Shown here piece after piece: positions 9,407 through 18,678 of a stretch of 32,513 bases of DNA (its first letter is position 1; every line of letters begins with the position of its first letter). Position numbers and translations under genes: made by a program. The notes below the pieces were generated by a model that saw only the letters and a program-made list of their open reading frames with translations, made no database searches and was not told where the DNA came from. Source of the stretch: Treponema sp. (lineage in GTDB: Bacteria > Spirochaetota > Spirochaetia > Treponematales > Treponemataceae); the NCBI GenBank assembly GCA_024699235.1, contig JAILPY010000165.1, positions 1-32,513 on the forward strand, written 5' to 3'.

Positions 9407-9488
9407 TGCGGAGAACCTGACTTGAACAGGCACAGCTCTCGCCACTAGCACCTCAAGCTAGCGTGTCTACCAATTCCACCATCCCCGC
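9407..9488 (-). tRNA. tRNA-Leu, anticodon GAG
   Basis: An 82-nt class II tRNA on the minus strand. The acceptor stem GCGGGGA pairs with TCTCCGC (one G-U) and the discriminator is A. The D-arm contains GGTAGACAC. The anticodon stem CTAGC/GCTAG encloses loop TTGAGGT, so the anticodon is GAG and it reads CUU/CUC. There is a long variable arm (TGGCGAGAGCTGT), and the T-arm reads GCCTG TTCAAGT CAGGT. CCA is not encoded. It has its own promoter and terminator. Confidence 0.97.
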
Positions 9489-13336: not shown

Positions 13337-15025
13337 TCAGACTATCTGGTTTATTGCGCTGACAACAGCGTCAATACCGGCCCTTCCAATATTTGTAGAC
13401 TTTCCTACGCCCCAGTACTGATTACCGTTTTCGCATGTAATCTGAATATAAGCAACGGCAGAAGTATTGTTTCCCTTACCGATGCTGTGCTCATGGAATG
13501 CTGTAATTGTAAAGCGAGGAACATCAATCTTAGCAAGGGCATTTGAGAATGCATCAATAGGTCCGTTTCCTTTATCTCCAATAGCATGCTGCTGTCCTTT
13601 CCATATAACTACAGCACGGCACAATGCATTTTCCTGAACCTCAGACTCACTGGATCCTTCAAGATGCGTTTCTGCCAGATCAACAATAGAAAGGTTACCT
13701 TTCTTTGAAAGCCACTGCTTAATAAACAAATCGTAAATTTCTTCTGCCTTAAGCTCTCTCTGAGCTTCATCAGCCGCATGCTTAACAACATCGCCAAGAG
13801 CAGGATGCATAGCCTTTGGAAGAGTAAGTCCGTAATCCTGTTCCAGAATGAATGCGGAACCACCCTTTCCTGACTGACTGTTAATGCGGATAATTCCCTC
13901 GTACTGACGTCCAATGTCATGAGGATCTATAAGCAGGTAAGGAACGTCCCACAAAGCATTCTTTGGCATTTTTGTGCGGGCCGCCATGCCTTTACGTATT
14001 GCATCCTGATGGCTTCCGCTGAATGCAGTAAATACAAGCTCTCCAACATAAGGAACCCTAGGTCCAATAGACATGCCTGTAAACTTTTCATAAAGTTCTG
14101 CAATTTCAGGAAGATTGTGAAGATCCAATTCAGGATCAATTCCCTGGGAGAACATATTCAAAGCTACATTAACTACATCAAGGTTTCCTGTACGTTCACC
14201 GTTTCCGAACAGACAGCCTTCTACCCTGTCTGCACCGGCAAGAAGACCCATTTCACAAGAAGCAACTCCTTCTCCACGGTCATTGTGGCAGTGCGTGCTT
14301 ATTATTACACAGTCCCTGTTTGTAATATGCTTAGAGAAATATTCAATCTGGTCTGCATAAACATTTGGAGTTGCACACTCTACAGTCGTAGGCAAGTTAA
14401 GGATAATCTTATCGTCAGGAGAACATCCCCATTCCTGCTTTACAGCTTCACAGATTTCAACGGCATAATCAATTTCCGTCATAGAAAAGCTTTCTGGAGA
14501 ATATTCAAGACGGATTCTCTTGCGGTCTTCTGCAGAAATACAGGATTTTATGCACTTTACGCCATCAATTGCAAGCTGCTTGATTTCTTCCTTTGATTTT
14601 CCAAATGTATAATTTCGCTGTGCCGGAGACGTTGAATTGTAAATGTGGAAGATTGCCTTTGGTGCACCTTTCAGACATTCAATTGTCTTTTTTACAAGCT
14701 TTTCCCTGGCCTGGCACAATACCTGAATGGTTACGTCATCAGGAATGCGTTTTTCTTCTATAAGTCTTCTGATAAATTCATATTCAGTATCGCTTGCTGC
14801 CGGAAATCCAACTTCAACTTCCTTGAATCCAAGCTTTACAATTAAGTCAAAGAATGCAAGCTTTGTTTCAATTCCCATAGGATCTACCAGAGCCTGATTT
14901 CCGTCACGTAAATCTACAGAACACCATAATGGAGCCTTCGTAATCTTGCGAGAAGGCCAGTCCCTAGTTGTCATAGGAATGTCTGCAATTGGGGCATACT
15001 TGCCGTTTGGATTCATACCTGCCAT
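13337..15025 (-). CDS. leuA: 2-isopropylmalate synthase, long (type 2) form
   Basis: A 562-residue enzyme that condenses acetyl-CoA with 2-oxoisovalerate, the committed step of leucine synthesis. It has the N-terminal extension typical of the long LeuA class (Corynebacterium/yeast-like), the DLRDGNQALVDPM motif (38-50) in the TIM barrel, the metal-binding HCHNDRGEG segment with His245 and His247, and a C-terminal LeuA dimer/regulatory domain from about 430 that ends in NIGRAGIDAVVSAINQIV. That domain normally gives feedback inhibition by leucine. The ATG at 15025 has AAAGGAG 6 nt upstream. The gene is single, with no leuBCD nearby. Transcription is controlled by a leucine-codon attenuator just upstream, so leucine should act both on the gene and on the enzyme. 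Confidence 0.95.
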   Translation of the reverse strand: MAGMNPNGKYAPIADIPMTTRDWPSRKITKAPLWCSVDLRDGNQALVDPMGIETKLAFFDLIVKLGFKEVEVGFPAASDTEYEFIRRLIEEKRIPDDVTIQVLCQAREKLVKKTIECLKGAPKAIFHIYNSTSPAQRNYTFGKSKEEIKQLAIDGVKCIKSCISAEDRKRIRLEYSPESFSMTEIDYAVEICEAVKQEWGCSPDDKIILNLPTTVECATPNVYADQIEYFSKHITNRDCVIISTHCHNDRGEGVASCEMGLLAGADRVEGCLFGNGERTGNLDVVNVALNMFSQGIDPELDLHNLPEIAELYEKFTGMSIGPRVPYVGELVFTAFSGSHQDAIRKGMAARTKMPKNALWDVPYLLIDPHDIGRQYEGIIRINSQSGKGGSAFILEQDYGLTLPKAMHPALGDVVKHAADEAQRELKAEEIYDLFIKQWLSKKGNLSIVDLAETHLEGSSESEVQENALCRAVVIWKGQQHAIGDKGNGPIDAFSNALAKIDVPRFTITAFHEHSIGKGNNTSAVAYIQITCENGNQYWGVGKSTNIGRAGIDAVVSAINQIV

Positions 15026-15038
15026 AAAAATCTCCTTT

Positions 15039-15157
15039 AAAAAAAAAGACCTGCTGCCGAAGCAACAGGTCTGTTAATTCCTTAATAAAATTCTAGAACA
15101 CCCAGCACCTATTCCCGGCTATCATAAGAGAAAGATAGAGCTAGTAGCTGTAGTGTT
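15039..15157 (-). promoter_or_regulatory. ribosome-mediated transcription attenuator of leuA
   Basis: Four minus-strand segments give three alternative helices. 1:2 is 15157-15147 with 15106-15097 (10 bp, one bulged A) and covers leucine codons 6 and 8. 2:3, the antiterminator, is 15113-15103 with 15073-15064 (10 bp, one bulged G). 3:4, the terminator, is 15072-15062 with 15057-15047 (11 bp, UUCG loop) followed by nine T (15039-15047). 2:3 excludes both others. The leader stop codon (15109-15111) lies inside segment 2, so a ribosome that finishes the peptide frees the terminator. A ribosome stalled at the CTA codons masks segment 1 and favours 2:3. The pairings were read by eye from the sequence. 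Confidence 0.85.
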
Positions 15158-15168
15158 ACATATTTCAT
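15109..15168 (-). CDS. leucine leader peptide of the leuA attenuator
   Basis: A 19-codon frame, MKYVTLQLLALSFSYDSRE, ending in TAG. Four of 19 codons are leucine (positions 6, 8, 9, 11), and all four are CTA, a codon that looks uncommon in the neighbouring genes. The -10 box ends 7 nt before the ATG and there is no Shine-Dalgarno, so the peptide is probably translated from a leaderless transcript. Its role is to couple ribosome position to the folding of the attenuator, as in the enteric leu operon. The peptide has no similarity I can see to the E. coli leader beyond its leucine run. Confidence 0.82.
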   Translation of the reverse strand: MKYVTLQLLALSFSYDSRE

Positions 15169-15175
15169 GTTTTTA

Positions 15176-15204
15176 TTTATATCGCATAAAATAATTATAG
15201 TCAA
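15176..15204 (-). promoter_or_regulatory. promoter of the leu leader and leuA
   Basis: Minus strand TTGACT (15199-15204), 17-nt spacer, TATAAA (15176-15181). The expected start is 15168-15169, at the leader-peptide ATG. Confidence 0.8.
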
Positions 15205-16070: not shown

Positions 16071-16424
16071 GTGGAAAAAGTACAGGCAGGCACATTAAAG
16101 ACTTCCAAAGGAATATATGGACGCATTATTGATGATGAAGGCAGGTGCGTCCATTATGGAAGCATCGCTGACATAATAGCAAACAGATGTTCAATATGCG
16201 GTAAGCTCTATGCCTGCTATAAATGTCATGATGAACTTGAAGACCATAAATTTGGGGCAGTCAGAGAGAACGAGGCAGATTCTGTAATGTGCGGAGTTTG
16301 CGGAACTCAGTTTTCATACATAACGTACAGCGGACTCTCAAAATGCCCTTCATGCGGATCGCTCTTTAATCCAAGATGTGCCCTGCATAAAAATTGTTAC
16401 GCAAAGCAGAGTAACTTACCTTAA
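16071..16424 (+). CDS. CHY-type zinc-finger protein
   Basis: A 117-residue protein with a dense Cys/His pattern: CSICGKLYACYKCHDELEDH, then CGVCGTQFSY, CPSCGSLFNPRC and HKNC. This matches the CHY zinc-finger domain, which binds several zinc ions. In yeast a relative (Hot13) acts in mitochondrial import; the bacterial role is not established. The reading frame opens with GTG 14 nt after the DUF4197 stop, and I see no Shine-Dalgarno, so translation may rely on coupling. Its 3' end overlaps the end of the convergent DUF4954 gene by 9 bp. Confidence 0.82.
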   Translation: MEKVQAGTLKTSKGIYGRIIDDEGRCVHYGSIADIIANRCSICGKLYACYKCHDELEDHKFGAVRENEADSVMCGVCGTQFSYITYSGLSKCPSCGSLFNPRCALHKNCYAKQSNLP

Positions 16425-18641
16425 ATTCCTAAACAGTTTTTCCAGAACAGCATTAAAGTCATCAGTAGAAGCTTTTAGAGTCTTAAGGAAACTGTTATCT
16501 TTAAGGGTACCAAGGACGGCATCTTTTTCTTCCTTGTTCCTAAATGTAATGGAACGGAAAAAGTCCTTAAAGTCCTTTTCTCGGGAAGAAATAGAAGATT
16601 CAAGCATATTCAGCGAAACGTAAGAAACATCCTTTGTAATATCAGAATAAACTTCACCTGTAAACTTATTCAACGGAAGCGTATAAAGCTGTTCAAGAAT
16701 ATACAGGGCATATCGGGCCTTGTCTTCTATATAGTTTTTCTGACATAAGTCATAGAATTCATGAACTTGCTGCCATGTGGAAATTTTACCGCTTTTTATG
16801 TCATTAAACAAATCATATATTCTTGCTTCAGGAATTACCTGTCCGCCAACATTAATCCACTTTGTATACAGTTCGTTCTTTTCAATAAGCTTTATGTCTT
16901 CTGCACAAAGTTCTTCTGTCTGGTGAATCAAGCCCCAGTCCATAAGAGTTTCTACGGCAAAATATTTTAATATCCTTCTGTATTCACGGTAAGCCTGAGC
17001 AGGCTTATATATGACAGCCCCATATTTTTTCTGACACCTGTCATCAGTAAGAAGGAACTGGGAATCTGGATTATGATGCAGATAATCCTTGGCAATCTGC
17101 CTTAGTTCGTCACCTTCAGAAACAGAACAAGCCCTATTACGGAAATCCTTTAAAATTTCAGGATTAGGATTATATGGAGTCATTTTTCCAATCATATCAT
17201 CCGGCAACTTTAAATAACGCTGCGTTAATTCAATTATGCGGGAAACAGCCTGAACGACTTCCTGAATCGTATCAGGAGCGAGCGGATTTGTTTCTATATG
17301 CTGAACTTTTACGATACGCTTATCACGCGATGCAAATTTATATTTGTTGCGTACAATTGCAAACATGTTGTACATAAACCAGTATGCAGGAATAATATGA
17401 ATGCAGTCTTCATTTTTACTCGTAGCAACAAGCGAAAACGGATAAGTAACATTCAGTTCATACTGATAGCTTCCTTTTGCAACAAGAACAAAAGAAGCAA
17501 ATTTAGAATCATATTTAAAGTCTGAACACAAGCCAGGCCAGAAACCTCTGCCAGCTATCATCTCTCCGTCTGGGGAACGGGAGTTATGATTTGAGCCTAT
17601 CGTAGCGGCAGAAGCTATGTTACTCTGCCCCATAACGGTTGATGCAATCAAGAATGAAGAATTATGATGCTGTTCATGAAAAGGATATATAAGATTGTTC
17701 AAAAGCTCACAGCATGAAACTGTAGAATTGTCACCAAGAATAGAGTTTAAAAGACGAGCCCCGTACTTTAAATGACAGTTACGGCCTATTATAAAGCGTA
17801 CGGCAACAGCCTGATAGAACACATGGCTGCCATATCCCATTATGCCGTTTACCATTTCTACGCCTTCGCCAATCTGGCTTGGTTCCTGTTCAGAAGACAG
17901 GACTGTAATGTTCTTTAGCTTAAAGGCGCCTTTTATATAAGCAAAGCTGCAGATATAAGCATCTTTTAGGAGAGTACAGTTCTTTATGACGACATCATCC
18001 TCTACAATTCCGACAGTATCATTCTTTCTGTCATTTCCTGCTTCTGTAAGCTCGACAAATTTATCCATAAGGGCAGAATCTTCCCTATACCTGGACCACA
18101 GATAGGCATCTGCAGGAATCATATCCTTAAAAGCCAGTACAGAACGGTTGCCGTTTTCATTACCCACGCCAATCCATATCCTGTTTTCTTCAGGCTCGCC
18201 TTCCTTTAGTATACCCTCGCCAAACTTCGAATGCTCTGTACAGCTCATTTCCTGTATGTTAAACAGCATTACCCTGTTGCCGATTTTGTAATTTGAAAGA
18301 TAGCTTACATTATGGACAACACAGTCGTCCCCTATTGTTACACCGTAAAGCACGGAACGGTAAATTCCAGTCCTTAATTCAAGATCATGATATTTAAGGG
18401 TAGCAGGACGTATAGTTCCAAGAACTACAAGTCCGTTAAATTCGCTCTGAACTACAAGTGTCGGATCAAATTCTCCTGGCTTATCGCTAACATAAACATT
18501 TTGCCAGTCTGGGTCGGAAGAAATGTTTCTATTTTGAATCAGTGTATATACTTCTGCAGGAGTAAGCTTTCTTTTTCCTTCTATGGAAATATTATAGTCA
18601 GTTATCTTTTTTTCTTTTGAAAGAATGGTTACCTGTGACAT
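16416..18641 (-). CDS. DUF4954 protein with a left-handed beta-helix region
   Basis: A 741-residue protein of the DUF4954 family, seen mainly in spirochetes and Bacteroidetes. The first ~340 residues show irregular hexapeptide-like turns (GVTIGDDCVVHNVSYLSNYKIGNRVMLF, VEDDVVIKNCTLLKDAYI, GRNCHLKYGARLLNSILGDNSTV), as in the beta-helices of sugar-nucleotide or acyl transferases. The C-terminal half is mostly helical. An acyl- or nucleotidyl-transferase-like role is only inference. There is no signal peptide. I chose the ATG at 18641 because the -10 box ends 7 nt before it; the ATG at 18650 lies within the -10 box. It is divergent from the M16 gene and converges on the CHY gene. Confidence 0.85.
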   Translation of the reverse strand: MSQVTILSKEKKITDYNISIEGKRKLTPAEVYTLIQNRNISSDPDWQNVYVSDKPGEFDPTLVVQSEFNGLVVLGTIRPATLKYHDLELRTGIYRSVLYGVTIGDDCVVHNVSYLSNYKIGNRVMLFNIQEMSCTEHSKFGEGILKEGEPEENRIWIGVGNENGNRSVLAFKDMIPADAYLWSRYREDSALMDKFVELTEAGNDRKNDTVGIVEDDVVIKNCTLLKDAYICSFAYIKGAFKLKNITVLSSEQEPSQIGEGVEMVNGIMGYGSHVFYQAVAVRFIIGRNCHLKYGARLLNSILGDNSTVSCCELLNNLIYPFHEQHHNSSFLIASTVMGQSNIASAATIGSNHNSRSPDGEMIAGRGFWPGLCSDFKYDSKFASFVLVAKGSYQYELNVTYPFSLVATSKNEDCIHIIPAYWFMYNMFAIVRNKYKFASRDKRIVKVQHIETNPLAPDTIQEVVQAVSRIIELTQRYLKLPDDMIGKMTPYNPNPEILKDFRNRACSVSEGDELRQIAKDYLHHNPDSQFLLTDDRCQKKYGAVIYKPAQAYREYRRILKYFAVETLMDWGLIHQTEELCAEDIKLIEKNELYTKWINVGGQVIPEARIYDLFNDIKSGKISTWQQVHEFYDLCQKNYIEDKARYALYILEQLYTLPLNKFTGEVYSDITKDVSYVSLNMLESSISSREKDFKDFFRSITFRNKEEKDAVLGTLKDNSFLKTLKASTDDFNAVLEKLFRNLR

Positions 18642-18648
18642 GGAGAGC

Positions 18649-18678
18649 ATTATACAATGCTTTTACACCCTTTTGCAA
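18649..18678 (-). promoter_or_regulatory. promoter of the DUF4954 gene (leaderless)
   Basis: Minus strand TTGCAA (18673-18678), 18-nt spacer, TATAAT (18649-18654), 7 nt before the ATG. Its -35 box is a palindrome also used by the divergent M16 promoter. Confidence 0.75.

Follow-up and report, generated by a model that had tools for sequence, protein, structure and literature searches.

The question raised by this locus is whether leuA of a Treponema is governed by a leucine-codon attenuator of the classic kind. The window, meaning the whole stretch of 32,513 nt that was analysed (contig JAILPY010000165.1 of assembly GCA_024699235.1), carries the gene on its minus strand. A sequence-only reading had proposed that the region just upstream, 15039-15204, holds a leader peptide with four CTA leucine codons, a 1:2 helix over those codons, a 2:3 antiterminator and a 3:4 terminator with nine T. 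That proposal is upheld by the comparison described here, as the Leu run, the terminator and the 1:2 and 2:3 pairings are conserved in the genus. The favoured interpretation, to which we give a probability of roughly 0.9, is that leuA is under ribosome-mediated transcription attenuation, in which a leaderless leader peptide would serve to sense charged leucyl-tRNA. The gene had been correctly named, passing the cut-offs of both TIGR00970 (698.4 bits, cut-off 697.4) and NF002991 (782, cut-off 455). The features of the locus are these:

15199-15204, minus strand: -35 element TTGACT, from the sequence
15176-15181, minus strand: -10 element TATAAA, from the sequence, after a 17-nt spacer and 7 nt upstream of the leader ATG
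15109-15168, minus strand: leader peptide ORF MKYVTLQLLALSFSYDSRE and stop, 19 codons, from the sequence and the genus comparison; predicted to be leaderless (5' AUG)
15137-15168, minus strand: segment 1, the 5' arm of the 1:2 helix, containing the AUG and Leu codons (fold and swap tests)
15136-15153, minus strand: regulatory codons 6-11, CTA CAG CTA CTA GCT CTA, four of them Leu, CTA being enriched
15128-15132, minus strand: UUCUC motif, conserved as YCUC
15085-15116, minus strand: segment 2, the 3' arm of 1:2 and 5' arm of 2:3, holding the leader stop (fold, swap tests and stalled-ribosome fold)
15064-15081, minus strand: segment 3, AAUUAACAGACCUGU, with conserved AAAUUACAGACCUG, which pairs with 15113-15095 as the antiterminator or begins the terminator
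15047-15072, minus strand: 3:4 terminator hairpin, 11 bp with a UUCG loop (fold and covariation)
15039-15047, minus strand: nine-T tract of the terminator, from the sequence
15031-15037, minus strand: leuA Shine-Dalgarno sequence AAGGAGA, from the sequence
13337-15025, minus strand: leuA, 2-isopropylmalate synthase, 562 aa, ATG at 15025, from profile matches

The leader peptide can be read directly in the sequence, its four CTA triplets being codons 6, 8, 9 and 11, and its stop codon TAG (15111-15109) falls inside segment 2, as had been claimed. A typical leader of the genus follows the pattern MKxTLLLL.SFS..CRK, with a median spacing of 27 nt between the last regulatory Leu codon and the stop. 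CTA accounts for 292 of the 518 Leu codons in genus leaders (56%) but for only 18 of 1193 (1.5%) outside the leader in 30 leuA genes and 29 of 373 (7.8%) in eight genes of the window. The window also carries a tRNA-Leu gene with anticodon GAG (9407-9488, minus strand), which is not expected to read CUA.

The promoter upstream of the leader is of the sigma-70 type. Across 99 genus loci, in which the leader ATGs were picked by a script that ignored the promoter, the -35 peak (TTGAC) lies at -35 to -31 and the -10 peak at -12 to -7 relative to the ATG, exactly where they should fall with the A of AUG as +1. The gap between the -10 element and the ATG is 6 nt in 53 of these loci and 6-8 nt in 76. 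A Shine-Dalgarno-like sequence precedes 14% of the leader ATGs as against 100 of 110 leuA starts. Twenty more distant loci, where the ATGs were chosen by eye and the evidence is weaker, show a gap of 6-8 nt in 15 cases and a Shine-Dalgarno sequence in none. Since the leader ATG sits at the predicted transcription start and Shine-Dalgarno sequences are rare, the treponemal leader peptide is probably leaderless, an addition to the sequence-only reading, which missed this geometry. Such a design has precedents: many mRNAs of Leptospira interrogans are leaderless (PMC5243855), and leader peptides of this kind have been reported in Streptomyces (PMC8079986) and Sinorhizobium meliloti (PMC7298713).

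The leader RNA folds with an energy of -40.6 kcal/mol, compared with -31.0 +/- 3.3 kcal/mol for dinucleotide shuffles (z -2.9), and its minimum-energy structure is 1:2 plus 3:4. The terminator stem pairs 15072-15062 with 15057-15047. With its T tract on the side facing leuA, the hairpin is a terminator for transcription into leuA and not for the opposite strand. Covariation in this stem is strong, with 98.2% paired cells and double changes in nine of ten pairs, a result matched by none of 500 shuffles. The 1:2 helix pairs 15168-15137 with 15116-15085 and covers the start codon itself as well as the Leu codons. When segments were exchanged from divergent relatives, a procedure that removes shared ancestry in part only, the 1:2 duplex had an energy of -18.0 kcal/mol with its own partner, -13.9 with swapped and -11.1 with shuffled partners, and the advantage of own over swapped persists on 68 representatives. 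The 2:3 antiterminator (15113-15095 with 15081-15064) appears when the fold assumes a ribosome stalled on the Leu codons. Its energies of -9.2 (own), -8.4 (swapped) and -7.0 kcal/mol (shuffled) differ significantly (p 0.0013 against swapped, 7e-11 against shuffled), the gain over swapped partners being modest.

All three proposed helices find support, and the suggested check by covariation was borne out in full for the terminator. For 1:2 and 2:3 the swaps and shuffles are positive, but a column-wise test of the 1:2 core, made on 7-bp and 6-bp cores in registers chosen by script, is not significant: 79% of cells are paired against 77%, a level reached by 546 of 5000 shuffles, and in the other class by 3997 of 5000. 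The case for 1:2 consequently comes from the whole-region swaps. RNAalifold, given an alignment of 52 sequences, recovered only the terminator because segment 2 aligns poorly. In a simple occlusion model that places the ribosome at the final regulatory Leu codon, 2:3 sequesters 6.4 bases in the 5' arm of the terminator, and only 2.7 once the ribosome is at the stop codon; with the stalled ribosome at least four arm bases are sequestered in 92% of leaders. The comparison thus points to a strongly covarying terminator, a species-specific 1:2 pairing and a 2:3 pairing that is less strongly, and moderately, supported.

LeuA homologues occur in 183 of 196 same-genus genomes, and 109 leuA upstream regions had enough sequence to be compared. 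One locus (L012) is truncated by a contig end. A script found the leader ORF and terminator in 101 of the 109 regions, and no terminator in the other eight. At least three Leu within a six-codon window are present in 95 of the 101 script-picked ORFs. Homologues keep both the Leu codons and the competing helices, which is what the sequence-only reading had proposed as a test. Four of the six leaders below this threshold (L048, L050, L052 and L055) read MIYTALLYAN.. or similar, with two adjacent Leu; a fifth, L035, had been misassigned and was left out. The attenuator is absent from L042, L100, L139 and L141, where the upstream gene almost adjoins leuA. The neighbour in L042 is similar to the window ORF at 16416-18650, a layout which suggests that the attenuator is lost when leuA joins an operon.

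A covariance model (R1) built from 52 leaders matches 139 of the 196 genomes, nearly always immediately upstream of leuA or where a contig ends, and named hosts include Treponema socranskii, Treponema sp. JC4 and Treponema sp. C6A8. The window's own genome has a single strong site, at leuA (91.4 bits, compared with 26.8 for the next). No match was obtained at E 0.01 in 57 genomes; several of these were inspected and have leuA directly behind another gene, or a different upstream region. A genuine second leader copy, one exception to the location at leuA, was found in genome G161 (L191:201-329, G161:C67:23312-23440), where leader and terminator lie ~1.9 kb upstream of the copy at leuA and the gene behind them resembles a class V aminotransferase. 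Weak R1 matches in G007, G015 and G090 are ordinary intergenic terminators.

Such weak matches, few as they are, speak for a chance ORF before an ordinary terminator, or for a small RNA with no regulatory role. This explanation is very improbable. For each stretch of 300 nt upstream of leuA the top-scoring small ORF was counted and set against dinucleotide shuffles for 15 amino acids. Leu was the only one clearly enriched, at 61% in the genus against 3.6% in shuffles, and at 44% against 2.3% in other members of the class or phylum. The CTA bias, the terminator covariation and the promoter geometry, fixed over ~100 species, argue in the same direction. Judged from these comparisons, the attenuator elements are far above chance and conserved across the genus.

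A leucyl T-box, or another riboswitch sensing tRNA or a metabolite and ending in the same terminator, also deserves consideration, as T-boxes control branched-chain synthesis genes in many Firmicutes. The leader matched no Rfam family at the gathering score, including T-box RF00230 and the enteric Leu_leader RF00512, and nothing credible appeared at a relaxed threshold. Moreover, the ~130 nt after the promoter are mostly occupied by the leader ORF and its helices, and conservation is concentrated in the Leu codons. We consider a riboswitch scarcely credible here.

Sequence and comparison show the ORF, its Leu codons, the promoter geometry, the lack of a Shine-Dalgarno sequence, the covarying terminator, the species-specific 1:2 complementarity and statistical support for 2:3; the start site, translation, stalling and response to leucine are inferred. 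The transcription attenuator that we prefer would operate as follows. RNA synthesis would begin at the leader AUG or within one or two bases of it, and a ribosome would load at this 5' AUG as soon as it leaves the polymerase. With ample Leu-tRNA, the ribosome would pass the CUA codons, reach the stop and cover segment 2, and the 3:4 terminator would form ahead of leuA. With scarce Leu-tRNA, it would stall at the rare CUA codons and mask segment 1; segment 2, then free, would pair with segment 3 (AAUUAACAGACC), so that the terminator would be blocked and leuA transcribed. With no ribosome, the AUG would be sequestered by 1:2 and the terminator would form. The switch should turn leuA on when leucine is short in gut and rumen treponemes. 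Anyone studying how treponemes of the rumen, gut and mouth handle leucine would thereby have a definite point of control to examine. The probable leaderless design would also set the ribosome on the first bases of the RNA, a clean natural test of 5'-AUG initiation against the pace of RNA polymerase.

The UUCUC at 15128-15132 is a further feature of these leaders, overlooked by the sequence-only reading. YCUC, mostly as UUCUC, occurs 0-13 nt downstream of the final Leu codon in 100 of 100 genus leaders, compared with 23% by chance, and would lie under a stalled ribosome. It is found in all three reading frames of the leader ORF, which points to selection on the RNA rather than the peptide. By sequence, the motif could base-pair with GAG in the Shine-Dalgarno sequence of leuA, both sides are nearly invariant, and GAG is present in 86 of 90 distinct combinations of motif and Shine-Dalgarno sequence. 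Control might then be translational, in addition to termination or as the main effect: without a stalled ribosome, YCUC would pair with the leuA Shine-Dalgarno sequence, as proposed for the actinobacterial LEU element. The presence of YCUC in ilvB leaders is in keeping with this. The pairing beats shuffled motifs but is not species-specific (own -5.43, swapped -5.76 kcal/mol), a result that, with both sides nearly invariant, speaks neither for nor against it. A clear intrinsic terminator already accounts for regulation, and a translational arm seems unlikely.

Leucine leaders before leuA appear, from the upstream sequences, to extend beyond treponemes, a further addition to the earlier reading. 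Model R1 still matches in other genera of Treponemataceae. In further classes and families of the phylum, leuA is preceded by Leu-rich ORFs that are unrelated in sequence and for the most part look leaderless. Within the window's own class they mostly have a terminator, an example being MKKFLSQLHLGLLGLVLPKKLRAA in L144. In L160 the Leu-rich leader ahead of leuA reads MKTNFVLNLLALLLLENR. Two loci of another class of the phylum, L158 and L172, have no obvious T run; their leaders end in LLLLPRL and stop, or similar, just before leuA, and are followed by a bare hairpin (arms gcgccgtaaggg..cccttatggcgc in L172). Control in these two may possibly be translational rather than transcriptional.

Other amino acid operons were also inspected. 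At three of the ilvB loci examined in relatives (L217, L256 and L209) Val/Leu-rich leaders, MNAKLLVTVVTVLVLKVFR, ..ILVTVVTVLVLKVKM and MHFLSLVKVVTVLVLSVD, each ending in a stop, lie close behind a -10 box, contain CCTC or TCTC and are followed by terminators; they are probable branched-chain attenuators. The ilvB copies that were inspected in the genome of the window showed no Val/Leu-rich leader, and the hisG upstream regions of relatives showed no His-codon leader. The trpE-like genes of L238, L241, L242, L243, L245 and L248 have repeated palindromic boxes across -35 and -10, including GTTACTATTGACAGTAAC and GTTTCTATAAGTAGTAAC, suggestive of a repressor operator and not of an attenuator. A broader and rather doubtful conjecture is that leaderless leucine attenuators before leuA form an ancient family spread over the whole phylum, to which treponemes added YCUC so that one stalled ribosome would control both termination and leuA translation, in a layout shared with ilvB.

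Among known systems, the enteric leu attenuator (leuL, RF00512) is alike in its four-segment logic, its Leu-codon leader and its terminator ahead of leuA. Rare CUA codons in a leu leader have a precedent in Salmonella and are shared with the treponemal leader, which differs from leuL in having no sequence match, a probable leaderless ORF, a TIGR00970-type leuA and the YCUC motif. In Streptomyces lividans, leuL1 (before leuA) and leuL2 (before leuS) encode short Leu-rich leader peptides whose transcripts are reported to be leaderless; a terminator is present in leuL2 but leuL1 lacks a typical one, and peptide and RNA are unrelated to the treponemal ones (PMC8079986). The actinobacterial LEU element also has a Leu-run uORF upstream of leuA, but is a pseudoknot in which the Leu codons pair with the leuA Shine-Dalgarno sequence, in place of the 1:2, 2:3 and 3:4 helices and terminator found here (PMC1262725). 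The treponemal leader was not assigned to it, having a terminator and Leu codons that pair with segment 2. The trpL of S. meliloti is a transcription attenuator whose RNA 5' end begins with the leader ATG, although it concerns tryptophan, Alphaproteobacteria and a different RNA (PMC7298713). A leucine-rich leader in Staphylococcus aureus is reported to control branched-chain synthesis genes outside Proteobacteria, but in Firmicutes and with other genes and sequence (PMC5794164).

According to a survey of 2010, leader-peptide systems had until then been known from Proteobacteria and Actinobacteria only; the survey itself contributed one for histidine in Firmicutes (PMC2965389). In the open-access library that was searched, no paper describes such a leader in a spirochete. 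The leader described here would add Spirochaetota to these phyla, with ~140 genomes in one genus. The type of attenuator is itself classic; the parts most deserving of specialist attention are its leaderless geometry and the conserved YCUC.
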